Positions 121 through 24,965 of a stretch of DNA of 26,460 nt are shown here, in pieces. The notes beneath the pieces are model-generated. The model saw only the letters and a program-made list of their open reading frames with translations, was not told where the DNA came from and searched no databases. Position numbers and translations under genes: made by a program. The stretch's first letter is position 1. Every line of letters starts with the position of its first letter. The DNA lies in assembly GCA_022925895.1 (NCBI GenBank), contig JAKSYS010000771.1:1-26460 (forward strand), written 5' to 3'. The DNA is from Fragilaria crotonensis (Eukaryota; Bacillariophyta; Fragilariophyceae; Fragilariales; Fragilariaceae).

Positions 121-1230
121 ATGAAGTCATCAATCATCACTATACTACTGCTTGTAGTCAGGCAAGCCGCAGCGTCACAACGGGGAAGCATCGGCAATTC
201 CGTTGCGCTTCGATCGGTTCCATCAACTCGTCGTGGTCCAGGCTATGTTTCCACCTCTCGAAGATCCGTATCTTTGACTGACAACGATATTCACCAAGTT
301 CAAAACTGCGCTGTAAGTGATTGGAACGAGCGCTACCTGGTACAATACTCATTTATTGGTGTCTCTCATTTACATTCGTTGCCATCAACTGCGATCTTTC
401 GTCCAAAATCTTAGGTTGGCGGAGTCGCCCTATCCACTTTGGCCCGCGGCGCCTTTCTCCGCGTCGCCTCCGATTTGTCTGGCGGGACGCCACTCGAATC
501 GATCAAATGTCGCGTCACTGCCACTCAGCTTGGTCCAATTGACGCCTTCAAGGCGATTGTTGCCGAAGGCGGGTATGGTAATTTGTGGGCTGGTTCCTTC
601 TCCCGGACGATTGAGGGCTCCTTATTGGGTGCGCTGTTTCTGGTGGGAGCGACGGCGGCCAAGAAACAAACGTTGGCCATGGGCGGTTCGCCTACTTTGG
701 CGGCACTCACGGGAGGACTCGCTGGCGGACTCGCGCAAGCCATTGTGATGACGCCGGCCGGGATGGTATTCACGTCTCTCAACTTGAATCGAGGGAAAAA
801 GGGATATGAGAACGACAATGCGATTACGGTAACGAAACGTATTTTTAAGGAAAAGGGACTCTCGGGCATGTTTTATGGTGGGGGTCCCATGTGCGTTCGA
901 CAGGCAACCAACTGGATGAGCCGTTCATATTTTACAGAAGTGGCTCGGACGACGTTCAAAATGTCGAAATATGGATTAATTGGAGAAATTGGATCCGGGG
1001 TGATTGGAGGATTGGGCAGTTGCTGGAACACACCCGTAGAAACTATTCGTGTCTTTATGCAGGCCGATGTTAGTGCAGGACGACAGCCAAAGACTAGTTT
1101 GGAGTATTGGCGAGATATTAAAAAGGAGCAGGGATATGCCGGTCTCTTTCGGGGAGTGACGCCTCGCGGCGTCCAAGCGATCTGGCAGACGGTCTTCATG
1201 GTGGTGGTTCCAAATGTTCTCGGACTCTAA
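121..1230 (+). CDS. Mitochondrial carrier family protein, Yhm2-like (putative citrate/2-oxoglutarate carrier)
   Basis: The coding sequence joins 121-312 and 415-1230 across a 102-base intron and gives 335 residues. Three carrier repeats are visible. Their signature sites are TPLESIK (residues 89-95), a degenerate TPAGMVF in repeat two, and TPVETIR in repeat three. The blocks RQATNWMSR, WNTPVETIR and the C-terminal RGVTPR...IWQTVFMV closely match what I recall of yeast Yhm2, which exchanges citrate and oxoglutarate across the mitochondrial inner membrane. The substrate is therefore inferred from family resemblance. The N-terminus is unusual: residues 4-19 form a hydrophobic stretch ending in AAAS, followed by an Arg/Ser-rich segment, which looks like a secretory or plastid leader or an unusual presequence. 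Most carriers lack such a leader. The ATG at 121 is chosen because an in-frame stop lies at 109-111. Carrier membership is near certain, while substrate and organelle are less sure. Confidence 0.88.
313..414 (+). other. Spliceosomal intron in the carrier gene
   Basis: The donor is GTAAGT at 313 and the acceptor is TTAG ending at 414. The intron is 102 bases and in phase 0. Splicing joins the leader exon (64 codons) in frame to the first carrier helix, beginning VGGVALST. Confidence 0.85.
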
Positions 1231-1473
1231 GGCTTTTAGAGTGCTCGCCGTTGCAAAGGTGCTGGATTACTATTCGTCTAGAGAGTGTGTACTAAAGACG
1301 ATAGAGTAGGGCTGGAATCAGACAATATTCGGTCGCCTTCATTGCTTTCGTTGGTCCCTTCCTATACAGTGTAGGAGTAGTTAAGTAACATAATTTTATA
1401 TAGGAATAGAGGTATAGTCCACCTTAGTTCATTTGGATCCGATTAACATGCAACGAACGTTTGTTCATAGTCT

Positions 1474-1500
1474 ACTCTCTACCGGTAGTAGCTAGAGAGT
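1474..1500. repeat. 8-bp inverted repeat (hairpin)
   Basis: ACTCTCTA at 1474-1481 is the exact reverse complement of TAGAGAGT at 1493-1500, with an 11-base loop containing ACCGGT. It lies about 245 bases after the carrier stop. Its function is unknown. Confidence 0.5.
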
Positions 1501-1588
1501 CTCCATTGCTCCATTGTACGAGTAGTGAAGTTACAGCATATAAAAACTGGGAAACCAATGCAAGTGAAATCTGAGGGGATCCGACATC

Positions 1589-1740
1589 AGAATGAAAGGA
1601 AATGACGTCAAGCCGTACCAATCAGCCAATCAGCATGCTCTCCCTGTGTTACTGCCTTACTGGAGTACTGTATCACCGTAGGTGTTACGTGAAAGGCTCA
1701 GTACTGTGACGTCATCGTTGACGTCATTTCCTTGCATTCT
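1589..1740. promoter_or_regulatory. CRE-like (TGACGTCA) and CCAAT cluster inside an inverted repeat
   Basis: Three perfect TGACGTCA octamers lie at 1603-1610, 1707-1714 and 1719-1726. The first and last are embedded in a 22-base inverted repeat (1589-1610 against 1719-1740, 21 of 22 matching). Between them, CCAATCAG occurs twice in tandem (from 1618 and 1626). TGACGT-type sites are bound by bZIP factors, and in Phaeodactylum related motifs have been described as CO2/cAMP-responsive elements. CCAAT is the NF-Y core. The next gene downstream is EF-2, whose ATG is about 350 bases further on, so control of EF-2 is the simplest inference. It has not been shown. Confidence 0.55.
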
Positions 1741-2086
1741 CTCTAATCCTGTACTGGTACTGAGGTGCTCAGTACTAGTACTACAGTCTACAGTCTGATT
1801 TAATCGGATCCAGTGACCTGTCTAAAACCTTGATGTGTGGACCGGCACCGGCACCTTCGGAAAACCACGCCTCGCATCATCACCGGTGTTCTTTCGCACG
1901 CGCATGCCGCACGATTTGTTTCTGTGGCTTCCGAGCAGCCATCGTCGGCCAGTGACCTACTCCGAGTATTCGCGTACACCTGGTACTAGTATGCTGTATT
2001 ACAATGCCACTTGATTTGATCACCACACACTTTCGCCCTTGCGCTTGATTTTCCGTTTTGGATTTACCCCAAACGAATCTGTCAAG

Positions 2087-5000
2087 ATGGTACGATTTCG
2101 TTGTCGAATCTCTGTCCCCTTGCGTTATTGTTGTCCATGTGTATGCTGTTGGGGATGTGAAGCATGTCGTTGCTCTTCAGCTCCAAAGCAGTTGAGGAAT
2201 GGAGCCTTGATTGGTCGGTGTCTGCTATTCCGGTTACTGCCAAAGGGCACGTAGATTCTACTGGTGTCAGTACGAGCGGAATCTTCTGCAGCACGACTCT
2301 TGACTGCTGATGACTGGGTTTATGAGTGAAGGAGTTCGGCTGTCTATAGCTTCTCTGGACTCTAGACATTTGATACCTGGCATGGACTTGTCGTTAGAGA
2401 GATTTCATGCGTTCATAAGAGCCTTCGAATGATGCAGGTGACTTGAACCAAAACCCGAACTTTTTCTATCGATGGATCGATCGTTTCCGAGTGGTTCTTT
2501 TCTGCGTTTATGCGGCCCTATCGTCCTCGTACCTCTTATTAATCAGTATACTAACTCGCATCTCTTGTCATGATCAACAGGTTAACTTTACCGTTGAACA
2601 AATGAGATCCATCATGGATCTCAAGCACAACATCCGTTCGATGTCTGTGATTGCACACGTCGATCACGGAAAGACCACCCTTACAGACTCCCTCGTCCAA
2701 AAGGCTGGTATTATCTCTGCCAAGGCTGCTGGTGGAGCGCGTTACACCGATACTCGTGCCGATGAGGCCGAGCGTGGTATTACCATCAAGTCCACCGGAA
2801 TTTCCATGTTTTTCGAGTACGATAAGAAGGCCGGCGAGGTCGGATCCACCTCATCATCCAAGCTTACCGAAGAGGAAGAGGCTTCCCAGGCCGCCACCTT
2901 GAAGCAGATGCAGGAAGAAAACGCGACCGTGCATATTACCGCTAACTCTTACCTTATCAACCTGATTGATTCCCCAGGTCACGTTGATTTCTCCTCAGAG
3001 GTCACTGCTGCCCTTCGTGTCACTGATGGTGCGCTTGTCGTCGTCGATACCATCGATGGAGTCTGCGTCCAAACCGAGACTGTGCTCCGTCAGGCCATTT
3101 CAGAGCGTGTCATGCCATGTCTCATGGTTAACAAGGTCGATCGCGCACTTCTTGAGTTGCAGCTTCCTGCTGAAGAGCTTTACCAGGCCTTTTGCCGTGC
3201 CATTAGTCCGTCAACGTTATTGTTGCCACCTACAACGACGAGGCTCTTGGTGATGTTCAGGTTGACCCCTCCAAGGGAACCGTTGCCTTCGGATCAGGTC
3301 TCCACCAATGGGCTTTCACCCTTAAGCGTTTCGCAAGAACTTACGGAGCCAAGTTCGGTGTCCCAGAGGAGAAGATGGTGCAGAAGCTTTGGGGTGACTG
3401 GTATTTCGATAGTGCACGCAAGGTCTGGACCACTTCCGACAAAGGAGGCACCCTCGAGCGTGCTTTCTGTCAATTTATTGCTACTCCTATCACCACCCTC
3501 TTCGAGGCTATCATGGCCGAGAAGCATGGAAAGGTTAACAAGATGCTTAAGGCCATCGGTGTCGAGCTTAAGGGAGAGGAGAAGGAGCTTGTTGGAAAGC
3601 AATTGCTCAAGCGTGTCATGCAAAAGTGGCTTCCTGCTGGAGATACCATTCTGGAGATGATCGTGCTCCACCTTCCTTCCCCAGCGAAGGCTCAAAGATA
3701 CCGTGTCGACACCCTTTACGACGGTCCTTTGGACGACAAGACCGCCATTGCCATCCGCGAATGCGACACCCTCCCCAGGTGCCCCACTTTGCATGTACAT
3801 CTCTAAGATGGTCCCTACCTCCGATAAGGGACGTTTCTACGCCTTCGGACGTGTTTTCTCCGGAACTATTGGAACCGGCCAGAAGGTCCGTATCATGGGA
3901 CCTAACTACGTCCCTGGTAAGAAGACTGAGCTCTGGATCAAGAACATCCAACGTACTGTTATCATGATGGGACGTTACACCGAACAGGTCGCTGATATCC
4001 CTGCCGGTAACACTTGCGCACTTGTCGGTGTTGACCAGTACCTTCTCAAGTCCGGAACCATTGCTACCGAGGAGGATGCATGCACCATTAAGACCATGAA
4101 GTTCTCCGTCTCCCCTGTCGTTCGTTGTGCCGTTGAGCCAAAGAACTCCGCCGATCTCCCAAAGCTTGTCGAGGGTATGAAGCGTCTTGCCAAGTCTGAT
4201 CCGATGGTTTTGTGCTACACCGAAGAGTCCGGTGAGCACATTATTGCAGCATCTGGAGAGCTTCACTTGGAGATTTGCCTTCAAGATCTTCAGAACGATT
4301 TCATGGGAACTGAAGTCAAGGTCTCAGAACCTGTCGTTGCTTTCCGTGAGACCATGAACGGTAACTCCGATCAGATTTGCCTCTCCAAGTCTGCCAACAA
4401 GCACAATCGTCTTTTCGTTACTGGAGCGCCATTGGGTGCCGAGCTCTGCAAAGCTATTGATGATGGTGAGGTTGTTGCCGGAACTGAAGCAAAGATTTTG
4501 GGACGTTACCTTGCTGACAACTACGAATGGGATGTCACTGAAGCCCGTAAGATTTGGGCATTCGGTCCTGAGGGAACTGGCCCCAACATGTTCGTTGATA
4601 CCACCAAGGGAGTGAACTACCTGGCTGAGATCAGAGAGTCTGTTGTCGGAGGTTTCGCTTGGGCCACCCAAAACGGTCCTATGTGCGATGAAACCATGCG
4701 TGGCTGCCGTTTCAACTTGATGGATGTCGTCCTTCACGCTGATGCTATCCATCGTGGTATGGGTCAAATCATGCCTACCGCTCGTCGTGTCTGCTTTTCT
4801 TCGATGTTGTGTGGACAGCCAGGTCTCTTGGAGCCTATCTACCTCTGCAGTATCTCTGTGCCACAGGATGCCATGGGTAACGTTTACGGTGTGCTTACCC
4901 GCCGTCGTGGTCACGTGTTTAGCGAGGAGCCAAGACCTGGTACTCCTCAGATGACCCTCCTTGCTTACCTTCCAGTCATGGAATCGTTCGGTTTCACGGC

Positions 5001-5184
5001 CGACTTGCGTTCCAACACTGGAGGAAAGGCCTTCCCACAGTGCTCGTTCGATCACTGGGCCCCCATGTCTGGAGACCCATACACTGAAGGAAACAAGGCC
5101 AACGAGGTCATTACCGCTGTCAGAAAGCGCAAGGGTCTCAAGGATGGTATTCCACCACTCTCTCAATACCTCGACAAGCTCTAA
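2087..5184 (+). CDS. Translation elongation factor 2 (eEF2), with two compensating frame disruptions
   Basis: eEF2 is the cytosolic GTPase that drives ribosomal translocation. The coding sequence joins the ATG at 2087-2089 to 2581-5184, giving the canonical start MVNFTVEQ and about 868 codons, close to the family length. Visible motifs are G1 AHVDHGKT (residues 26-33), RYTDTR with the conserved regulatory threonines (57 and 59), G3 DSPGH, G4 NKVD, and the diphthamide loop with His at 4750-4752 (about residue 725). The loop reads IHRGMGQ rather than the common IHRGGGQ. The frame breaks twice. One base is missing near 3205, where ATT-GAG-TCC is expected and ATTAGTCC is found. One extra base appears near 3769, where GAC-CCC is expected and GACACCC is found. 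Between them about 565 bases encode normal eEF2 in the shifted frame, for example [14 protein letters not shown]. The family assignment is certain. The breaks are probably sequence errors, because both flanks and the middle remain fully conserved. Confidence 0.95.
2090..2580 (+). other. EF-2 intron immediately after the start codon
   Basis: The intron starts GTACGA directly after ATG and ends AACAG at 2580. A perfect TACTAAC branch site sits at 2549-2555, 25 bases before the acceptor. The 491-base length is long beside the other two introns here (100 and 102 bases). Long first introns at the start codon are common in highly expressed housekeeping genes and may enhance expression. No coding sequence is seen inside. 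Confidence 0.85.
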
Positions 5185-6902: not shown

Positions 6903-9900
6903 TCACTTTCCAGAGGTGGACTGGGTTTGTGGTGGGATGCCAACTTTGTGAGCTGCAGTCGGATTACTAGCTGGAGGGATGTATTGCTGCTGAACCGGTG
7001 CATGACGGGACTGCGTCGCCTGGTAGCTACCAGTGGGGGCGTGCTGAGAGTGAGGGGATCTTCCTGCAGGTGTAGGGGGCGTTGCAGCTTTCTTCTGCTT
7101 GTCTGCCAGGTCCAGAATCTGTAAGGGCCACATTTCTGTCCGACCACCCGTGGACAGCGCAGCAACGGCGGCCTGAAGCGATTGCTGGTGAGAAGGATGC
7201 GGCGAGGACAGAGTCGGCTTCTGTCCAGCAGCAATGCCCGGTATTGAGATCGGGGCTTCTTGCGTCATCAACGACGCCGCGCGTAAGGCACCGAAGGAAC
7301 GTCGCAGTTCCGCATCGTGCGCAGGGGGCTCTTCTGGGTCTTTATCGTCAGCTTCAGGAAATAAAAATGCGACCGGTCGAGCGTTCTTGGTGCTTAAAGC
7401 TGAAGGAATGACAACCGATTCGTCATCGTCTGCAGTGCTTTCCATTGCGAAACCTCCGTCATCATCTTGCATTTGTAGGCGAAGGACTTGATTACTATCA
7501 TTCCTCTTGTGAAAGATGGTGGGGTGTGGGTAGAAGGACGACGTGGAGATCCGAGTCTCCAGCATCTCACGGCCAATAGCTGGGTTGCTTTTTGCGAGCT
7601 GGCACCAACGCTGGCAGCACTCTTTCTCGGTTCTTGACAACCGCTTCTTTAAATCTCTCAAGCTTGCGGCAATCAAACGCCAATTCATTGTGAATCGACA
7701 GGCCAACAAACGCAATTTCTTGTCTTCCGACAGCGACCATGGCCGAGGTTGACGACAAGAATCAAAGTCAGGAATGTTCGCATCGAAAGGTAGATCATGA
7801 CTGATCCCCACTTTGGTGTTTGGAATTCCGGTGACAGGATCGACATCGGAAAGGCTTCCAACTTTGAAGGGTCCGAAGTCTGAAGTCGGTGGCCCCATCA
7901 GCTGCAACTTATCTGACGTATAACCTGGGCATCCTACAAGACTGGTCCATTGCGGGGGCGACGACGCATGGATGCGCGTTGGCCAAGTCTTGTTGAGGTG
8001 GTCGTGCTGTTGACTCGCGGACAACCCAGCAATTCTCTCAACAGAAAACGAGAGGCGGTCGCATATCCTGTCGCGAACGCGAAGTGCAGCGAAGCGAAAG
8101 TTCGATGATTCAAGCAAACCAGGTCCTCCGTAACCTTGCCTACCATACATGGCAAGGATTTTATGCCGGACAACGTCTTTCCCCTTTGCTGGGACGGCGT
8201 TAGGAGAAAGCGCTGGAGGCACTTGTGGAGCAGTTGCAAAAGGAGCAGCAGCTCCAACAGACAATCCGGTCGCATTCACGAATGAAGTGGGCGTAGCTGC
8301 CTTCTTCAACTTCTTCGTTGGGGCTGATCCGTTTGCCTTCAAATCAATGGAAACACCATTTATTCCTGGCACCCCCGCGTAGGTGGCATGAGGCAATGCA
8401 GTCGACGCAGTACTCCAGGGCGAAATTTGCGGATGACTGAATGCTTGTGAGGGAGAGTAATGCGGTCTCGAGTTCAGAGGCTGCTTTCTGGCGACAAACA
8501 GAATCATTGCATCCATTCCAGCCTCGCTTCGATCAGATTTCGCCGATTCGGCTTCTTCAAAATCACACGGAAATGGGCGCGATCCTGTTCTGTACTCTGC
8601 AAGCCCTCCAATCGACGTACAATACTCGGTGATTTCGACATTGTCGTTTGATGCTTCTTTGATATATTGCGATTGCAGCGGAGCTGCTCCTGCACCGAAG
8701 ATACCAAAATCCTCATCCAAATCTACCAATAAACTCTTCCAATCAGGCTCAGGCGCACAAGGAGGAACGGCCAGAACACCATTAGCAGCGACAGGCTCTT
8801 GCGAAGCAGTTGGCACGTGAAGAGACGTAAGACTTGTGGTGGTTGGCAGCGCCTGAGGCAAAGAAACCAACTCTGGCTTCGAAATCTGCGCTTGGGTGGC
8901 GATTGGGTCCATTTCGAGGCGTGGCCGCTTCGTCTCCACGACGCTTTCGCCTCCGAGTAGCGGGCGCTTTGAAAGATCACCTGTTGCTGCACCACAGGCA
9001 TCCGTCGATGCCGGATTCTTCTTCTCCATCCGTAGCTCGGACAGGGCTTTCGTGGCGTGCTTAGACACCTGTCGTTGGAAAGGGAAAATTGGGGGGAAGT
9101 AAACTAGAGGCTCCACTCCTTGCGACCCATCGTGCACATTAAAGGCTCCTCCAGAAACCGACGTGGAATAGATTCTAGAGAAAGCGTTGTACCTTGAGAC
9201 CATCCTAGACCGCGACAGCGATGTCCCATCGAAATTGGATGTGTTTTCAGAACGCTTTCTCTTCTGTCGTAGGTTGTCAGTTTCGTCAGCGCAATAGAAA
9301 AGGACTGAGGCGCTCACGTCTTGGGGAGTAGGGGCATTCTCCGCATGTTCAGTGCCAGCATGTCGATAAGAAACTCCTGCTTCCGAACTCACACATGCAG
9401 AGTTCGCGTAAAATGAAGATACTCCCTTAGTCGGTGATGACAGTGCTATTGGTCGTGCCTTCACAACACGTTCCATGTAGAATCGAGCAAAGGCCGAAAA
9501 CATGGTCGCTGTTGATACAAGCAGGGGAACAACAGGTGTGTCCCTAATAACTGCCCCATGAAGTGCCACTGTCTCAGTCCTCAGCCAATTTTCCTCTGCA
9601 ATGAGTTCCTTTGCGAACGTCAGAATCATTCCCTTTTGAGAAGAATCAGCAGCGGTCAGACCTTTCTCGAATGGTAGGAGTTTCAATTCTTTGCCCGATT
9701 CAAGATTTGCAGGCAGCGGTTCCATCGTCCCGAGAAATGAAGCAAGATCTACGTCTTTGAAGCTCACGAGATTAAGTCCAGGGAAGGCGAAAACGTAATC
9801 AGGGTCAAAGTGCGCAAAGCTTTCGTCCTTCCTTTCAATTGACTCTTCAAGTTCGAGCAGACCAGCATTATTCGCTGCCCACTTCTCTTCGTATAGACCT

Positions 9901-12900
9901 TCAGTGATGACATTGTCCTTGAGGCCGCAAAGAAGTTTTTCCTCGCAACAATCGCCGCATACGAATCTGTACACACGAAAATCAGCTCGTTCTGATTCAT
10001 GCCTGGCTCTATGCATAAAACAACGAACAAGTATTTGTTTCGCAAGTTGACACTCCCTACCACTCCAGTCTTCATCAAGGAATATGATCGCATCGGACGC
10101 TTCCACCGACAAGCCAGTCTCAAACTGTGCTACATCGATAGTGGATCCAAGAATAATGCTCGCTGCTCGAGGGGTTGTAAGCATGTCTTGCGGAGTGGGG
10201 CATCCCCTATGGTCGACATCCACGTTGTTGTACCGCAGCAACGAAAGCTGCATCTTCGTCCATGACATACTGTCCAGGAGACTGCTGGAGTCTTCGTCGC
10301 TGTGAGTGCTGCTGAGGCCTGCGCCTTTTGTGCAAGCCATGTTCTCGTGGTCTGTCCCAAGAGAGGAGAGAAGGACCGACGTGAGCCGTAACACGAAAGG
10401 AGAGGAGGCAATGATTGCAATCTTTGGCACACCATCCTTCATTGGTCGTAAGCTCCGCCTCGACTTCGGTTGCAGCTCAGGAATAATGGATTCAAGAAAC
10501 GGCATGCCTTCAAAGTGGTAGCCGAAATCGCGATGCAACAAGATCACCAACTCTTTCAGTTTTGCTGACTCGTTGATCATTTCCAAAGCTAGTTGCACAT
10601 CAGGCTGAGCTGCGCTTGGTGAAGCTGGTACGCAAATATCGCGCAACCGGGCGTGGAAGCATACATCTCGAATCTGCATGAAGCCTCTGGCGGCATCCAA
10701 TAAAGTTCCACCGAGTGATAGGGCGCCCCTGAGATTGCGACAACAATTGTCGTACGCTGCTTGCTGTAGAGCTGACATTTTACAGAGGTGGACCTCTGTG
10801 TCGTAAATGGACTTTTCCTCGAAAGATTTTTGGACATTATCGAAATGATGGTCTGGTACAAACATAAGCCTTGTCAATAGCCCAACGAGATGAGCTTCAA
10901 CTTGCTCTACTACTGTCCCCATTTTCGGCTGCTTCTTCTTGACCAGATGTTTAGCCCAAGAAAGAACCCTATGAGCGGGAACTTTCTTTGGCCCCTGAAA
11001 TAGAGACGGTCCCAGCACGAAAGCTGCCATTCCGGCGACCAAGCCCAATCTTTCTCGCTCCGTCAGGCGGCACAAGAAGGCGTGGTAACTTTCGCATTTT
11101 TGCAGCACGTATGAGTTAGAAATCAAAAGGCGCCGTTGCGTCTTCGACGACAACTTGCGCAGTAATGAGCTCCACCATGGCTCGGATAAGAATTCTGCAT
11201 GCACCCCATCCCGTACAGCATTCGCCGAACGTTTCTTTGTCGTCCCGAGAGTGAGATACCCATCGAGAACAACGCTCGCAAATTTAGAAACATCTAATCG
11301 TGTTGACAGCACACATGATGACAGCTCACAAACGACAACATCCGACTCGGACAATTCCTCAATACGAGAGTGAGATGGTTCGTCAGAAACGACAACAAGG
11401 ACCTTGGTGGCGCGATTGACACGCTTCAGCTCGCTCATCCAACGCAGCACACGCGCAGGAGGACAAATGATAAGATGAGGCCCTTCGTATTGCTTCAAAA
11501 GGGATGCCGTAACATCGTACGGACTAAAGGAATACGCATCTCCCAGTACAGCACCTGCTGGAATGTCCGCTTTCCATAGAAACTCCACGAAATCGCTGGC
11601 TTTCTGTTCCACTGGCGAAAGTGTGTAAGTAGCCTTGTTCGCAGAACTCTTGTTTCTGGTCCTCTGTCGTGGCCGTCGTTCGATGCGGTCCAGCAAATCA
11701 TCAACCTCCTTCCCGATGGTTTCGAATGAGAGTGCTTCTGAAGCTTTCGCAGTGTGCGTTGACACGTCAGCGACAGAGGAGGTATCGACATGTGGCAAGG
11801 CTGTCCCAGGAACAATCCTGGTCTCAGATAATGGCGTGCGCGCCTCGGCATCGATAGCACTTGTTGCCGATCTGGATTCCGAAATACATTCCCATTGTAC
11901 TAAAACCATCTTCGACATGGCCTTCGCGATGGATCGCATTATCACTTTGTCGTCTTCGGTGGGATTGAAGAAAATTCTTCTAGGCGGCGCGTCTGTTGGT
12001 TTTGCTTTTGAAGGACTATTGGCGTCCACTTCCTCCATAATCACATCTCCATCAGATTCCTTCTTCTCATCCTCAATGCGTTTTTCCTGTTCGAATGCTG
12101 CTGCTGCCCTTTCTCTGTCTTCTGCTGCACTTCGCAAATCATTGTAATGAGACAACACGCCAGACGAAAGGATTCGGCCGGAGGATACCTTCCATTTCCT
12201 TTCTTCTACAAAATCGGTCGCCAACCACCGCATTTCCTCCAATAAGTGGTCCCATTGGGTTTTGCGTCGCTGAGGATATTTGTGAGGTACAACCGAGAGG
12301 TCCTGTTGGAATGCAGTGACTCGAGCTGAACTCTCCATGTGCCGCTGTCGTTCCTCCAGTAGAATGTGCAACTTTCCCTGCACCCTGTTCCACCGCTCTC
12401 GTAGCGCAATGGCTTCTGGAAAGATAACGGCTGGTTTAGGCGGGGGCTCTGGAATTGAAATAAGTGGAGGTGCGGAGTATTGATACTGTGGTCTGCTAGG
12501 CTGTGCTTTCTGGGTTTTCATCGACGCTCGCTTCTTGGCGATTTCATGCGATATGGTTTTCCCTTGGGGTGCCGCAATTTGAATTGTTTGCTTCATCTTT
12601 TTCGGCACCATCATTGTGGGAGCTACGACATTTGAAGGTTCGGACGAAACTAGGTCCAATGACTGCCCCGGAGTCATCGCCGATAGCGCTGCGTTCATTC
12701 GTTTCCCTACCGACGCTCCACGTCGCAAGGAAACAGGTACTCGCTTTTCAGAAGGGTGCTTGTCCTCTTCTCTCTGTTTCTTGGCGGCTTGCGCCGCAAT
12801 CTTCGTCAGTTCTTTGTATGCGTCGATTTCCGAATTAACAGCGTCCCCTTCATATTCGGACAGTGTCGATATTATGGTACGTTTCGATGGTTTCTTCAGC

Positions 12901-13259
12901 CGCATCTCCACAGCCGATTTCGATTGTTGTATCCTCAGCAGCAGCAATTTCCGATGCGTCAATACTTCTTGGATTTGTTCATGTCGAGGTTTGTGCGCAA
13001 TGGGATTTACCGAATTTGGGAGATGCTGAGGTGCATTTGGGGAAGCGACTCTGGAGTCGTTCGTGTCTCCCCCAGCATCTGCATTTTGTGCAATGCTTTT
13101 CATGGACGGGTCAGCAGATAGCGCCGTGTGTTGGGGCTGTTGCGGAGGAGGGACACTCTCACCGTTGATGCCCGCGACTTGTCCGTGCCCATCCAATTTC
13201 AGCGGCGTCGAAATATTTAGCCGCTTGTTTGAAGTACTACGACGAGGCATGATCTTCAC
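6903..13259 (-). CDS. Eaf1/p400-like NuA4 scaffold: HSA, degenerate SNF2 ATPase, SANT/Myb
   Basis: This is a single 2118-residue open reading frame. Residues 1-330 are low-complexity with coiled-coil. An HSA domain lies at about 335-395 (WDHLLEEMRWLATDF, VEERKWK), the actin/Arp-binding helix of chromatin remodellers. A SNF2-like N lobe spans about 555-870 and a helicase-C-like lobe about 895-1120. A Myb/SANT domain lies at about 1838-1892 (RPWSLSEDKKLRLL to CCQRWCQL). HSA plus SNF2 plus SANT is the order of metazoan p400/Domino, while Eaf1 of yeast and plants has HSA and SANT without an ATPase. The fold of the ATPase is traceable (GPHLIICPPARVL, RRLLISNS, DAIIFLDEDW, EEKLL), but the catalytic motifs are lost. 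Walker A is VLGDAYSFSPYD with Pro580-Tyr581 in place of Lys-Thr, DEAH is VLDGY, and the motif VI arginines and GQ are gone. I infer a nuclear, non-catalytic scaffold of a NuA4/SWR1-type complex. The ATG at 13259 or the in-frame ATG three codons later could be the start. Confidence 0.85.
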   Translation of the reverse strand: MKIMPRRSTSNKRLNISTPLKLDGHGQVAGINGESVPPPQQPQHTALSADPSMKSIAQNADAGGDTNDSRVASPNAPQHLPNSVNPIAHKPRHEQIQEVLTHRKLLLLRIQQSKSAVEMRLKKPSKRTIISTLSEYEGDAVNSEIDAYKELTKIAAQAAKKQREEDKHPSEKRVPVSLRRGASVGKRMNAALSAMTPGQSLDLVSSEPSNVVAPTMMVPKKMKQTIQIAAPQGKTISHEIAKKRASMKTQKAQPSRPQYQYSAPPLISIPEPPPKPAVIFPEAIALRERWNRVQGKLHILLEERQRHMESSARVTAFQQDLSVVPHKYPQRRKTQWDHLLEEMRWLATDFVEERKWKVSSGRILSSGVLSHYNDLRSAAEDRERAAAAFEQEKRIEDEKKESDGDVIMEEVDANSPSKAKPTDAPPRRIFFNPTEDDKVIMRSIAKAMSKMVLVQWECISESRSATSAIDAEARTPLSETRIVPGTALPHVDTSSVADVSTHTAKASEALSFETIGKEVDDLLDRIERRPRQRTRNKSSANKATYTLSPVEQKASDFVEFLWKADIPAGAVLGDAYSFSPYDVTASLLKQYEGPHLIICPPARVLRWMSELKRVNRATKVLVVVSDEPSHSRIEELSESDVVVCELSSCVLSTRLDVSKFASVVLDGYLTLGTTKKRSANAVRDGVHAEFLSEPWWSSLLRKLSSKTQRRLLISNSYVLQKCESYHAFLCRLTERERLGLVAGMAAFVLGPSLFQGPKKVPAHRVLSWAKHLVKKKQPKMGTVVEQVEAHLVGLLTRLMFVPDHHFDNVQKSFEEKSIYDTEVHLCKMSALQQAAYDNCCRNLRGALSLGGTLLDAARGFMQIRDVCFHARLRDICVPASPSAAQPDVQLALEMINESAKLKELVILLHRDFGYHFEGMPFLESIIPELQPKSRRSLRPMKDGVPKIAIIASSPFVLRLTSVLLSSLGTDHENMACTKGAGLSSTHSDEDSSSLLDSMSWTKMQLSLLRYNNVDVDHRGCPTPQDMLTTPRAASIILGSTIDVAQFETGLSVEASDAIIFLDEDWSGRECQLAKQILVRCFMHRARHESERADFRVYRFVCGDCCEEKLLCGLKDNVITEGLYEEKWAANNAGLLELEESIERKDESFAHFDPDYVFAFPGLNLVSFKDVDLASFLGTMEPLPANLESGKELKLLPFEKGLTAADSSQKGMILTFAKELIAEENWLRTETVALHGAVIRDTPVVPLLVSTATMFSAFARFYMERVVKARPIALSSPTKGVSSFYANSACVSSEAGVSYRHAGTEHAENAPTPQDVSASVLFYCADETDNLRQKRKRSENTSNFDGTSLSRSRMVSRYNAFSRIYSTSVSGGAFNVHDGSQGVEPLVYFPPIFPFQRQVSKHATKALSELRMEKKNPASTDACGAATGDLSKRPLLGGESVVETKRPRLEMDPIATQAQISKPELVSLPQALPTTTSLTSLHVPTASQEPVAANGVLAVPPCAPEPDWKSLLVDLDEDFGIFGAGAAPLQSQYIKEASNDNVEITEYCTSIGGLAEYRTGSRPFPCDFEEAESAKSDRSEAGMDAMILFVARKQPLNSRPHYSPSQAFSHPQISPWSTASTALPHATYAGVPGINGVSIDLKANGSAPTKKLKKAATPTSFVNATGLSVGAAAPFATAPQVPPALSPNAVPAKGKDVVRHKILAMYGRQGYGGPGLLESSNFRFAALRVRDRICDRLSFSVERIAGLSASQQHDHLNKTWPTRIHASSPPQWTSLVGCPGYTSDKLQLMGPPTSDFGPFKVGSLSDVDPVTGIPNTKVGISHDLPFDANIPDFDSCRQPRPWSLSEDKKLRLLACRFTMNWRLIAASLRDLKKRLSRTEKECCQRWCQLAKSNPAIGREMLETRISTSSFYPHPTIFHKRNDSNQVLRLQMQDDDGGFAMESTADDDESVVIPSALSTKNARPVAFLFPEADDKDPEEPPAHDAELRRSFGALRAASLMTQEAPISIPGIAAGQKPTLSSPHPSHQQSLQAAVAALSTGGRTEMWPLQILDLADKQKKAATPPTPAGRSPHSQHAPTGSYQATQSRHAPVQQQYIPPASNPTAAHKVGIPPQTQSTSGK

Positions 13260-14305
13260 GCTTTTTGAACGGATTTAATTGCTCTCTTTCCTACTGCCGA
13301 CTTCTCTTCACTAGCACTTTCTAAAGCGCTCAATTCGTCCACTCATTTGATTCTTTAACAACCAACCAGAGGTAGAATAATGGATCAACTCGTCGATAAA
13401 ATGTGTTGCTGCAAATCGTCCGTGCGTCGGTCCCGTCATTTTCGTCCGGAGGTAAAATCATGTGACGTAACTCGGTTTATTATATGGTATCTTGGAAGCG
13501 ATGACAATCATTTTCATTTAGGATCGCCTAATTACAGAACTTCATCGGACGCTGATAGTGTGGCTGAAGTGTCACGTGTCGCCTCATGAATGGAGATATC
13601 ACATGGAACAATGTGTGGACAGCAGTGAAAACTGACGACCACAGCACGTAGTACGTAGTACCACAAGATTGCCACATCATTGGTTCGTGGTTAACGGGAA
13701 AAAACGGTACCATATAGGATATGGGATATGGATTTGGCTACTAGCTAGAGTACGGAGTATGCGATTTCTGTAGCTTGAGTCGATGGTACAAGTACTGCAG
13801 GAGCTACAATACTCGAGTACTGGAAGGATCACGATTGCTTCCAGTTTCTGGATCCAACAACAAACATTGATATACAACACGCCCTCAACCGAAAGTGAGA
13901 TGTACGCTTGTTTCCTTCGCCGTATGTCATATCTATGGCGCCTTCCGAGATAGACTGTTCCCGAACACATCATATCTTGTCATTATCCAGGCGAGCGGAC
14001 TGCGTTGCGGCGGAAGCGCAGATATCAATGTTGCTTAGCCGTATGCAATCGAAGTGGCGCATCGGCCGTCGCGTTCTACGGTCGTGGTGTGAAAGATGTG
14101 CATTTATTTGCTACTAATTGATATCGATGACTTCATACGCTAGGCGACGCCGCAACATCGATGCTGGGATTACTACCATAGTTAAAGCTTGGTGAGACAC
14201 CTAATCCTGACCTCAGCTTGACAGCCCTTGGAAGAACTTGAAAGTGAGAGTGAATTCGTCCATACTGGCGCAAGATACGCTGCTTGTTAATCCGACTACC
14301 CTGTC
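13260..14305. other. Intergenic region between the Eaf1-like and sulfotransferase-like genes
   Basis: No convincing gene is seen in 1046 bases. The part next to 13259 is the upstream region of the Eaf1-like gene, and the part next to 14306 is the 3' side of the sulfotransferase-like gene. Small open frames at 13380-13589 (+) and 13908-14117 (+) look random. A TGACGTAA site lies near 13462, a GTAC-rich zone spans about 13650-13820, and a 7-bp hairpin motif at 13820-13844 resembles one near 5543. Confidence 0.6.
13820..13847. repeat. Hairpin motif shared with 5543-5591
   Basis: CTGGAAG and CTTCCAG form an exact 7-bp inverted repeat around an 11-base loop. The same two halves, GGAAGGATCACG and TTGCTTCCAGTTT, occur in order at 5545-5556 and 5579-5591, separated there by 22 bases instead of about one. 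Confidence 0.45.
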
Positions 14306-21491: not shown

Positions 21492-21592
21492 TCATACATA
21501 CAATAGTGTAGTGCTGATCGCAAGTATCATCCATCTTCCCGTCGCAGTCTTGAATTCATCCAGCTCGTTAATCTCTCGACACATCACCTATC

Positions 21593-24500
21593 ATGTCCGC
21601 CAAGGCCGTTCGTGAGTATCATGGAAAGAAGCTATTGGCCAAGTATGTCGAAGAACTCAGTGATGGGAAGCATGTGATTGACTCCCGTTCGATTCTCGTC
21701 ACGTCCGAATCGGATTGGACCGCGCTCGCCGCAGATGAACCCTGGTTGCTCACCACACCGCTCGTTGTCAAACCGGATCAATTGATCAAGAGACGTGGTA
21801 AGGCCGGTTTGGTAGGAATCAAGTTGACGTTTGACCAAGTCCAAGCTTGGATTGCCGAACGCATGGGACACGATGTGACCATGGATGGAGTGACTGGAGA
21901 ATTGACGCATTTTATCGTGGAACCATTCGTTCCGCATTCTGACGATGATGAATATTATGTCTGCATTCAAAGTCATCGGGAAACTGATGAAATTTTGTTC
22001 ACCAAGGAAGGTGGTGTGGATGTCGGTGATGTCGACGAGAAAGCCTTGCGCTACGAGGTTGGCATTCAAGACGAACCGCAGGTGGACGCAGTCACTACGA
22101 ATCTTCTTACTGGCATTTCTCAGGATCGTGTTGACTCGTTGGCCAGTTTTATCGTCACACTCCTTCAAGTCTATCGGAAGCTTAACTTCACCTACATGGA
22201 AATCAATCCAATCGTCTTCACAACGGGTGGGACCATCGTTCCTTTGGATTTAGCAGCCAAATTGGACGAAACTGCTTCTTTTCTTCAAGCCGGTCACTGG
22301 GACGGCCACGTCGACTTCCCTGCTCCCTTTGGACGACCTGAGTACCCCGAAGAGTTGTACATCCGCGAACTGGACGGTAAGACAGGAGCGTCCTTGAAAT
22401 TAACCATTTTGAATCGCGCCGGGCGCATCTGGACCATGGTTGCTGGTGGAGGCGCCAGTGTCGTGTATGCTGATACCATTTCCGATTTGGGATACGGTGC
22501 CGAATTGGCAAATTATGGTGAATACAGTGGCGCGCCTAGCACCGAACACACATATGAATATGCAAAGACATTGATTTCGTTGATGACTACGGAGAAGGAC
22601 CCTCGAGGAAAGATCTTACTCGTTGGAGGTGGAATCGCTAATTTCACAGATGTTGCCGCGACGTTCACTGGTCTCATCAAGGCGATCGTCAACTTTCAAG
22701 ATGTCTTGAAGCTTCACAAGGTGAGTTTGTCGTTCACTGTTCTGTTCGTATATCAGTTTTGCGGGCTCACCCATTTCCCTGCGTTTGCCTCGCATTTGAA
22801 ACCCAACTTGTACTGCGCAGGTCCAGATTTGGGTTCGTCGTGCTGGTCCCAACTACCAAGAAGGACTCCAAATGATGCGTGAGACTGCAAACCAAACTGG
22901 TTTACCCATTCATATTTACGGTCCCGAATCTCACATCACCGACATCGTCCCACTCGCCCTTGGTTTGGCAGATCTTGCCGATCATCCCGAGTTTGATGAT
23001 GAACAACTCCAAGCCACCAAACCACTCTCGAAGCGTACAGCATCCGGCAATCATCTCATGCTGGCAGCTGACAACGGGACGCATGAGGCACTTCAACCAC
23101 AACCCACCGATCACGAAGCAGACCACAAGGTGGAAAACTTTACCGCGCTAACCCGGTGCGTCGTGTATGGTCTACAGCATCGAGCTGTGCAGGGCATGTT
23201 GGACTTTGATTTCATGTGCAAGCGCAAAACGCCATCTGTGGCCGCCATGATTTTCCCATTTTCATCCAACCATTACATTAAGTTTTACTGGGGAACCGAC
23301 GAGATTCTGGTTCCTGTATACCAGAACATGAAGGATGCGTTCACCAAGCATCCCGAGGTGACAGTATGCGTCAACTTTGCGTCTTTCCGATCTGTCTATT
23401 CCAGCGTTGTTGAAATGTTGGAATTCAGTGACCAAGTCAAGACGATTGCAATTATTGCCGAAGGTGTTCCCGAGTCGCAAACACGTCTACTCAACAAGAT
23501 GGCGCACGACAAGGGCGTCGGCATTATTGGGCCTGCCACCGTTGGAGGTATCAAACCAGGATGCTTTCGCATTGGTAATACTGGAGGCATGCTTGATAAT
23601 ATCGTGATGTCGAAATTGTACCGTCCTGGTTCCGTTGCGTACGTTTCCAAATCGGGTGGCATGAGTAACGAATTGAACAACATCATCTGTCGCAATTCCG
23701 ACGGTGTCTATGAAGGAGTCGCTATTGGAGGTGATCGTTATCCTGGATCTAGATTCATTGATCATCTTTTGAGATACAACGACAATCCAGCTGTTCACAT
23801 CCTCGTCTTGCTCGGTGAAGTAGGAGGAGTGGATGAATATGAAATTTGTGAAGCCGTCAAGTCGGGACGGATTCATAAGCCCCTAATTGCTTGGTGCATC
23901 GGTACCTGTGCCTCCATTTTCCCCTTTGAGGTCCAGTTCGGCCACGCCGGTGCGCTAGCGCGAGGCGACCTTGAGACAGCGACTGCCAAGAATCGAGCCC
24001 TCAAGGCTGCGGGAGCTACAGTACCGGATAACTTTGGAGAATTTGGAGCCAGCATTCGTAAAGTCTATGAAAGGTTGGTGCAGTCAGGCGAGCTTGTGCC
24101 TGCTCCCGAGCCCGAAACACCGAAGGTCCCGATGGATTACACTTGGGCCAAACGCCTTGGTCTCGTCCGTAAACCAGCAAATTTCATATCATCGATTTCC
24201 GACGATCGTGGGGATGAATTGACTTACAATGGAATGCCGATCAGCGATGTCTTCGCCAACGATCTTGGTGTCGGCGGTGTCGTTTCTTTGCTTTGGTTCC
24301 GTCGTCAGCTTCCTCCATATGCGACGAAGTTTATTGAAATGATCCTCATGGTTACCGGCGATCACGGTCCCGCCGTTTCTGGAGCACACAATACGATCGT
24401 TGCGGCGCGCGCTGGTAAAGATTTGGTATCATCCTTGGCGTCTGGACTTCTAACAATCGGACCAAGATTTGGGGGAGCCCTTGACGAGGCTGCCGTCATG

Positions 24501-24965
24501 TTCATGGAGGCGCGTGACACTGGCACCGACGCGGAGCATTTCGTCAAGGAGATGCGCCGCAACAACAAGCTCATCATGGGTATTGGACACCGTATCAAGT
24601 CACTTGCCAACCCCGACATGCGCGTCGAAATCATCAAGAAGTATGCGTTGGACCATTTCTCCGACAATAGCGTGCTCAAATTTGCCCTCGCTGTTGAGCA
24701 GGTTACTACGAAGAAGCGAGCAAATCTGATCCTTAACGTTGATGGATGTATTGCTGTTTGCTTTGTCGATATGTTGCGTAGCTGCGGGGCGTTTTCGAAG
24801 GAAGAAGCTGACGACTTGGTTCACAATGGTTGTCTCAACGGGCTCTTTGTGTTGGGACGCAGTATTGGATTCATTGGGCATTACCTTGACCAAAAGCGCC
24901 TCAAACAGGGTCTCTACAGACACCCGTGGGATGACATTAGCTACTTGACTGGACCCGACTTGTAA
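21593..24965 (+). CDS. ACLY: ATP-citrate lyase, fused animal-type single-chain form
   Basis: The enzyme converts citrate, CoA and ATP to acetyl-CoA and oxaloacetate in the cytosol, supplying acetyl-CoA for fatty acid and sterol synthesis. Exons 21593-22720 and 22821-24965 give 1090 residues, close to human ACLY (about 1100). The order is an ATP-grasp CoA-ligase half ([42 protein letters not shown]), a linker, a CoA-binding/ligase half with [14 protein letters not shown] and the phospho-histidine in VQFGHAGA (His751), and a citrate-synthase-like C-terminus ([46 protein letters not shown]). Plants and many algae carry ACL as two separate subunits, so the fusion is informative. The linker keeps KRTAS (Ser451), matching the phosphorylated Ser455 site of the human enzyme. 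The ATG at 21593 starts the conserved N-terminus. An AATAAA lies at 25098. The gene converges on the next one. Confidence 0.97.
22721..22820 (+). other. Spliceosomal intron in ATP-citrate lyase
   Basis: The donor is GTGAGT at 22721 and the acceptor GCGCAG ends at 22820. The intron is 100 bases and in phase 0. Splicing joins DVLKLHK to [15 protein letters not shown], the continuous conserved sequence of the family. Retention would shift the frame and stop at 22882. Confidence 0.95.

Follow-up and report, generated by a model that had tools for sequence, protein, structure and literature searches.

The gene considered here lies on the reverse strand of a 26,460-nucleotide stretch of the diatom Fragilaria crotonensis (contig JAKSYS010000771.1, analysed over its full length and called the window) and encodes a protein in which an HSA domain, a degenerate two-lobed SNF2 region and a SANT/Myb domain follow one another. 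Comparison with presumed active SNF2 sequences indicates that the SNF2 body has been retained, while its chemistry has been lost. In our judgement the protein is likely to be a platform of a NuA4-type complex with a vestigial ATPase, doing Eaf1-like work in a p400-like body. The motor has lost the residues required for the use of ATP, and the protein would probably help to hold a histone-acetylating complex together; it is predicted to have no ATPase activity and to be a member of a complex of the NuA4 type.

A single frame is free of stops from 6903 to 13274 on the reverse strand, with its first methionine at nucleotide 13250, and the remaining five frames across the gene carry 51 to 94 stops each. 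No near-identical second copy was found in the 62.1 Mb assembly with a protein search that is too coarse even for HSA paralogues. The gene and its domains are laid out as follows:

6903..13250, reverse strand: whole coding frame, 2115 amino acids plus stop, no intron needed.
12105..12275, reverse strand: HSA domain (residues 326-382), a predicted Arp4/actin-binding helix; Pfam 43.1 bits, EP400 the best PDB match (E 8.2e-10).
10611..11648, reverse strand: degenerate SNF2 lobe 1 (residues 535-880), by profile, hhalign, MAFFT and phmmer.
9873..10571, reverse strand: degenerate SNF2 lobe 2 (residues 894-1126), by profile, hhalign, spacing and phmmer.
7596..7739, reverse strand: SANT/Myb domain (residues 1838-1885); Myb_DNA-bind_6 23.2 bits, barely above the cut-off, Myb E 3.6e-4.

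The Pfam cut-offs are 23 bits for HSA, 22.9 for Myb_DNA-bind_6 and 24.9 for SNF2-rel_dom. With the two-lobed SNF2 region spanning residues ~535-1130, between the HSA and SANT domains, the HSA-SNF2-SANT order of p400, which a first-pass annotation of this DNA had described, is confirmed.

Because the SNF2-rel_dom scores (15.2 bits in the whole protein, 19.9 bits for the region alone) are both below the cut-off, the SNF2 identity of the region required a separate test. Each lobe was given a profile based on 12 SNF2 loci that this genome contains, picked among 46 matches and with the window gene left out; these profiles lean to SWR1, with which they were seeded. In hmmsearch of residues 501-1200, lobe 1 scored 28.4 bits (26.2 in the whole protein), whereas the highest of 5000 shuffles reached 6.1, and lobe 2 scored 12.7 bits, with 10.8 for the best of 5000 shuffles and 5.7 for the next. 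In hhalign, lobe 1 scored 57.3 (shuffles at most 24.5) and lobe 2 scored 39.4 (shuffles at most 21.3), with 200 shuffles each. A profile-free phmmer search of PDB with residues 535-1150 placed yeast SWR1 at the top, with E 1.8e-5 for two collinear stretches over both lobes, which taken singly have E values of 0.015 and 26; SNF2h (E 0.0069) and ISWI (0.023) followed, then SRCAP, Mot1 and INO80 with E of at least 0.08. Taken together, the profile, hhalign and phmmer results settle that the SNF2 homology of both lobes, as read from sequence, is real.

For the catalytic motifs, the window protein was aligned by MAFFT with 18 SNF2 segments that are presumed to be active and come from 17 loci (81 IMG/VR loci were collected), and in one further alignment with 27 loci plus locus L094. 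The sites concerned are:

11517..11531, reverse strand: motif I (Walker A) site, where SFSPY (residues 574-578) replaces GLGKT; ungapped MAFFT alignment with the presumed active SNF2 segments.
11439..11483, reverse strand: motif Ia, kept as GPHLIICPPARVLRW (residues 590-604); profile, hhalign and MAFFT.
11256..11264, reverse strand: motif II (Walker B) site, where DGY (residues 663-665) replaces DEA/DEG; MAFFT.
11100..11135, reverse strand: motif III site, where RRLLISNSYVLQ (residues 706-717) replaces RRLLLTGTPLQN; hhalign and MAFFT.
10104..10148, reverse strand: motif V site, GSTIDVAQFETGLSV (residues 1035-1049), with STRAGG gone; hhalign and MAFFT.
9963..10076, reverse strand: DEDW and motif VI site (residues 1059-1096), without RIGQ and with an 8-residue alignment insert; profile and MAFFT.

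At motif I, ADEMGLGKT of the active proteins aligns without gaps with GDAYSFSPY of the window protein, and the Lys-Thr of Walker A is Pro-Tyr at residues 577-578 (nucleotides 11522-11517), as had been claimed; the earlier numbering of 580-581 fits a count from nucleotide 13259, three codons upstream of the methionine. The reading of DGY in place of DEAH near nucleotide 11262 likewise holds in the MAFFT register (nucleotides 11264-11256). An alternative register, DGVH at residues 681-684, is preferred by two local aligners over DGYL at 663. The DGYL register is favoured, because it is preceded by a hydrophobic strand and coincides with a strand at residues 659-663 in an alignment-guided structure model, which was itself built with the same register. 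The Walker B aspartate is kept (D663 in the DGYL register), and the catalytic glutamate is glycine in both registers. TGT of motif III has become SNS, and in motif VI the arginine may persist, as R1081 (MAFFT) or as R1076 (ungapped, by eye), with GQ gone in both readings. The first-pass annotation had stated that every catalytic motif was lost and that the arginine and GQ box of motif VI were gone. This stands for Walker A, the Walker B glutamate, TGT, STRAGG and GQ; motif Ia and D663 are kept, and the motif VI arginine may be.

Among columns that are near-invariant (at least 90%) in the active rows, the window protein keeps 18 of 63, whereas the 18 active segments, left out in turn, keep 91 to 100% (lowest 59/65). 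The core hydrophobic columns are filled at 104 of 107 positions, 85 of these 104 being hydrophobic against an overall background of 44%, a figure somewhat inflated by the aligner's own preference. It is this difference, 85/104 against 18/63, from which a kept body and a lost chemistry are read.

Structure prediction, which had been proposed as a check for two lobes, provided an answer in part. The single-sequence model of residues 535-1150 reached a mean predicted local distance difference test score (pLDDT) of 39.0 and a predicted template modelling score (pTM) of 0.25, which is not a usable fold and says nothing either way. A model guided by an alignment of 19 rows reached pLDDT 61.1 and pTM 0.54, with a pLDDT of at least 70 for 243 of its 616 residues, and is SNF2-like: Foldseek returned 118 PDB matches with E of at most 0.001, of which the best 50 are SNF2-family proteins by their titles, with ISW1 at the top. 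In a second structural ranking, human EP400 was first (Z 18.3, root mean square deviation 7.0, 395 aligned residues), and EP400 or SRCAP made up nine of the top ten rows, with Mot1 (17.0) and INO80 (16.6) close and yeast SWR1 at 15.8. The guided model signifies compatibility and is no independent proof, since the alignment of active relatives, including two SWR1 segments, pushes the fold.

A point absent from the earlier annotation concerns the spacing of the lobes. From the VCFH of lobe 1 to the start of the SAKL helix of lobe 2 the distance is 31 residues, and the corresponding spacing is 260 and 230 residues in two SWR1 proteins, 21 in BRM and 25 in an ISWI-type protein; the long insert of the SWR1 type is therefore absent between the lobes. 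This insert is the RUVBL interaction region of EP400 and SWR1, and its absence speaks for a role in NuA4 only and against plain membership of the p400 group. The post-HSA motif was not found in the window protein either, by a simple, crude pattern that hits both SWR1 proteins.

The genome provides candidates for the other players. A six-frame search of the assembly gave three HSA matches, namely the window gene, a gene on contig C394 and one on C427. C427 is BRM, with HSA, SNF2 and a bromodomain. The ATPase on C394 scored 606 bits against SRCAP, 541 against SWR1, 383 against INO80 and 369 against EP400; its Walker A motif is whole across two exons (ADEMGLG, then KT), DEAH and RIGQ are present, and its frames include HSA and the long insert, with no Pfam SANT. 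By sequence, C394 is firmly identified as a separate, intact SWR1. In its frame after lobe 2 (locus L002, 784-2751, reverse strand), matches to WW and F-box-like domains below cut-off and a right-handed beta-helix of 43.9 bits were seen; either the C-terminus of this SWR1 without SANT is unusual, or the frame runs on into the gene next to it. With the other two matches accounted for as SWR1 and BRM, the window gene is the HSA match left for the p400/Eaf1 post. The search for NuA4-type genes covered EPL1, Tra1, MYST, MRG, DMAP1 and EAF6, and found above cut-off EPL1 (truncated by the end of its contig), Tra1, a single MYST and a single EAF6, and two genes each of the MRG and DMAP1 types; one match to YL1, a SWR1 subunit, was also above cut-off. 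The two DMAP1-type genes, on C81 and C120, score equally and are perhaps unmerged haplotypes.

Platforms of this kind have been described in other organisms. The main scaffold of NuA4 in yeast is Eaf1, whose HSA helix carries Arp4 and actin and whose SANT domain binds Tra1 (PMC9643008). In human TIP60, EP400 takes the role of Eaf1 and its SANT domain contacts TRRAP (PMC11995519). The fly DOM-A complex acetylates H4K12 without the DOM-A ATPase, as supported by the ATP-binding mutant K945G, and placing the Domino ATPase between the HSA and SANT of yeast EAF1 was reported to leave function unaffected (PMC7239659, the latter after Auger 2008). NuA4-like complexes are also known from T. brucei, in which no Eaf1 or EP400 was detected (PMC8559703). 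The DOM-A and EAF1 precedents imply that, where SWR1 is encoded separately, a platform of the p400 kind could lose its motor and keep its function. On this model, the HSA helix of the window protein would hold a module of Arp4, actin and Swc4 (DMAP1), the C-terminal SANT domain would dock on Tra1, and the intervening regions would bind Epl1 and thereby the MYST acetyltransferase. The SNF2 domain in the middle, with no long insert, would neither bind nor hydrolyse ATP and would persist as a folded spacer or binding surface, and the ATP-driven exchange of H2A.Z would be left to the separate SWR1 gene.

The placement of the protein within the family is less sharply defined. Against PDB, the window HSA scored 42.0 bits with EP400, 35.0 with SRCAP and 30.8 with EAF1, and no BRM or INO80 chain was among its seven matches up to E 10. 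As a control, the HSA of the genome's own BRM matched BRG1, BRM, SNF2 and STH1 chains; a further strong match bears the title 'WD40 repeat-containing protein', and EP400 was absent. The HSA of its own SWR1 scored 58.6 bits with EP400, 57.8 with SRCAP and 24.9 with EAF1, with matches to EP400 and SRCAP of 97 to 99 residues, compared with 54 to 64 for the window protein. In pairwise comparison of the SNF2 region with 14 rows, the genome's own SWR1 was top with a score of 335 (23.7% identity over 413 columns), followed by the second SWR1 (286) and a pair of ISWI-type rows at 276, with RAD54 lowest (120). Per aligned column, its own SWR1 was again highest (0.81), and the second SWR1 (0.715) tied with an ISWI-type row (0.719).

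In a likelihood tree without an EP400 row, the window protein sat on a branch of length 10 and its position was not settled. The approximately unbiased (AU) test gave p-values of 0.37 for placement with SWR1, 0.25 with BRM, 0.24 with MOT1, 0.089 with ISWI-type rows, 0.087 with INO80 candidates, 0.0498 with RAD54 and 0.024 with CHD, such that only CHD and, at the border, RAD54 were rejected among seven groups that were named after the tree had been seen, with the ISWI, CHD, MOT1, RAD26 and RAD54 rows labelled by eye. The phylogeny allows the SWR1 clade and allows BRM and MOT1 as well. Contig C585, taken up as INO80 for a DBINO match, was rejected as such, since the tree joins it to an ISWI-type row with 100% support; its row label 'INO80cand_L009' is therefore wrong. 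Weaker INO80 candidates on C438 (27.9 bits) and C320 (18.5 bits) are below the cut-off of 31; the two loci (L010 and L011) are near-identical on different contigs and are perhaps unmerged haplotypes.

Several observations weigh against the interpretation as a NuA4 platform. Lobe 2 is thin in hmmsearch, with 12.7 bits against 10.8 in a shuffle and 10.6 bits within the whole protein. EP400 is missing among the 15 PDB matches of the SNF2 region found by phmmer, and the matches of the SANT domain are Myb and CEF1-like chains, with no EP400 or EAF1. The HSA ranking is a soft signal, because the genome's own SWR1 HSA is also EP400-first, and the SWR1 clade, at a p-value of 0.37 in the AU test, is accompanied by BRM and MOT1, which are equally not rejected. 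That one HSA match is left for the post depends on a six-frame search of a possibly incomplete assembly. No relative from another species was found in the IMG/VR searches: three stretches fitted the whole-protein pattern and none was a relative. One IMG/VR contig retrieved by an HSA DNA pattern has an intact ATPase and the long insert and was read as SWR1, not as p400/EAF1. Loci L014, L015 and L094 of IMG/VR are eukaryotic-looking remodelers (by eye ISWI, Mot1 and SWR1 with HSA), with L016 aligning like L015; they are perhaps eukaryotic DNA filed as viral, and L094 also has phage-capsid-like frames. Finally, domain order by itself does not tell p400 apart from PIE1 of plants, a protein with the same HSA-ATPase-SANT layout (PMC4358907). 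The NuA4 membership formerly deduced from that order consequently holds to a lesser extent on this ground; it gains from an HSA nearest EP400, from six NuA4-type genes and from a separate SWR1.

Two alternatives are compatible with a NuA4 platform and differ from it in the use or source of the SNF2 domain. The motorless domain may keep a job of its own as a clamp on DNA or nucleosomes, a variant of the spacer step that we regard as rather unlikely. The 85 hydrophobic core positions of 104, the retention of motif Ia and a frame that stays open over the 616 codons of the SNF2 region despite strong divergence count in favour of such a clamp, but motifs V and VI, where active remodelers have residues that face DNA and ATP, are lost also. 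Somewhat less likely still, the SNF2 domain may stem from elsewhere than a p400/SWR1 ancestor: an HSA-SANT protein of the EAF1 type would have taken up another SNF2 domain, which then decayed. The spacing of 31 residues resembles BRM and ISWI and not SWR1, the AU test rejects neither BRM nor MOT1, and the second SWR1 does no better per column than an ISWI-type row. However, inserts are easily lost, SWR1 is the best PDB match and the genome's own SWR1 the best pairwise row, and EP400 and SRCAP head the list of the guided model, though many rows tie.

It is more clearly improbable that the protein is a dead paralogue of SWR1 that serves not NuA4 but a complex of the SWR1 type or another one with Arps, where it might, for instance, be a scaffold that regulates or competes. 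The SNF2 region is indeed nearest SWR1, both in PDB and among the 14 rows, and PIE1 with its HSA-ATPase-SANT order serves the incorporation of H2A.Z (PMC4358907). Nevertheless, the genome has an intact SWR1, complete with HSA and the long insert, to which the part of catalytic scaffold would fall; the window protein is without the insert and, by the crude pattern, without the post-HSA motif, and other candidates for Eaf1/p400 are absent among the HSA matches of the assembly. Continued hydrolysis of ATP through unusual residues can be given very little credence: D663 and possibly one motif VI arginine are kept, but Lys-Thr of Walker A is Pro-Tyr, the Walker B glutamate is glycine in both registers and GQ is lost. 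Equally implausible is a chance resemblance, or a loss of motifs through assembly or frameshift artefact, for although the Pfam SNF2 score is below cut-off and lobe 2 barely exceeds one of 5000 shuffles, both lobes are collinear in three tests, a single frame runs throughout the region and none of the 46 SNF2 matches of the genome search lies on the window contig in any frame.

Elsewhere in the window, neighbours of the gene lie at 415-5184 and at 21572-24965 (forward strand); the neighbouring frames are, as we presume, mitochondrial-carrier-like, elongation factor 2 and ATP-citrate-lyase-like. The assembly also contains 19 silicon-transporter matches, of which 18 are above cut-off and some are in tandem in one frame; on contig C97 (G000, 29749-33762), three such matches within one frame of 1456 residues make up a fused multi-domain transporter. 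These matches point to a diatom as the most likely source of the genome, although silicon transporters occur in some other algae as well.

With regard to origin, the platform with a vestigial motor is possibly, though doubtfully, a surviving halfway form on the way from p400 to Eaf1, in which the NuA4 duties have been kept, H2A.Z exchange has passed to a separate SWR1 and the motor decays in situ. The literature presents EP400 as Eaf1 and Swr1 fused into one protein (PMC11995519), and its origin by such a rearrangement has been proposed (PMC4358907). If the halfway form were real, yeast and plant Eaf1 could stem from a p400-like ancestor by loss of the motor, rather than p400 from a fusion of Eaf1 and Swr1; one would expect an SNF2 body that lacks its motor residues if evolution took the reverse course, or if the motor became dispensable once SWR1 was separate. 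The protein would also parallel, in nature, the DOM-A mutant in ATP binding. Literature searches within an open-access library listed no account of an HSA-SANT protein whose SNF2 domain is dead.

Among known systems, the window protein resembles EP400/p400 and Drosophila DOM-A, the TIP60/NuA4 scaffold of the INO80 class of SNF2 proteins, in having HSA, a two-lobed SNF2 region and a SANT domain far downstream, and EP400 is both the best PDB match of its HSA and the leading entry in the structural ranking of the guided model. It differs from them in the loss of its catalytic residues (SFSPY at motif I, glutamate to glycine, 18/63), in having no long insert (a length measured in two SWR1 proteins, not in EP400) and in the absence of EP400 from the sequence matches of the SNF2 region. 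With yeast EAF1 and AtEAF1, NuA4 platforms of the HSA-SANT type, it shares an HSA and a SANT domain, a separate SWR1 in the genome and, as would be expected, a platform role without use of ATP, but its SANT matched no EAF1 chain and it keeps a recognisable SNF2 region of ~600 residues where EAF1 has none between HSA and SANT. SWR1/SRCAP is the nearest sequence of its SNF2 region and plant PIE1 has the domain order of the window protein (PMC4358907), yet the window protein is without the Walker A and B motifs and the insert of SWR1/SRCAP, and the genome's own SWR1 is another gene, C394. Judged by its sequence, then, the protein is not a p400, for which motor and insert are missing, nor an EAF1, in which there is no SNF2 region, nor a SWR1.

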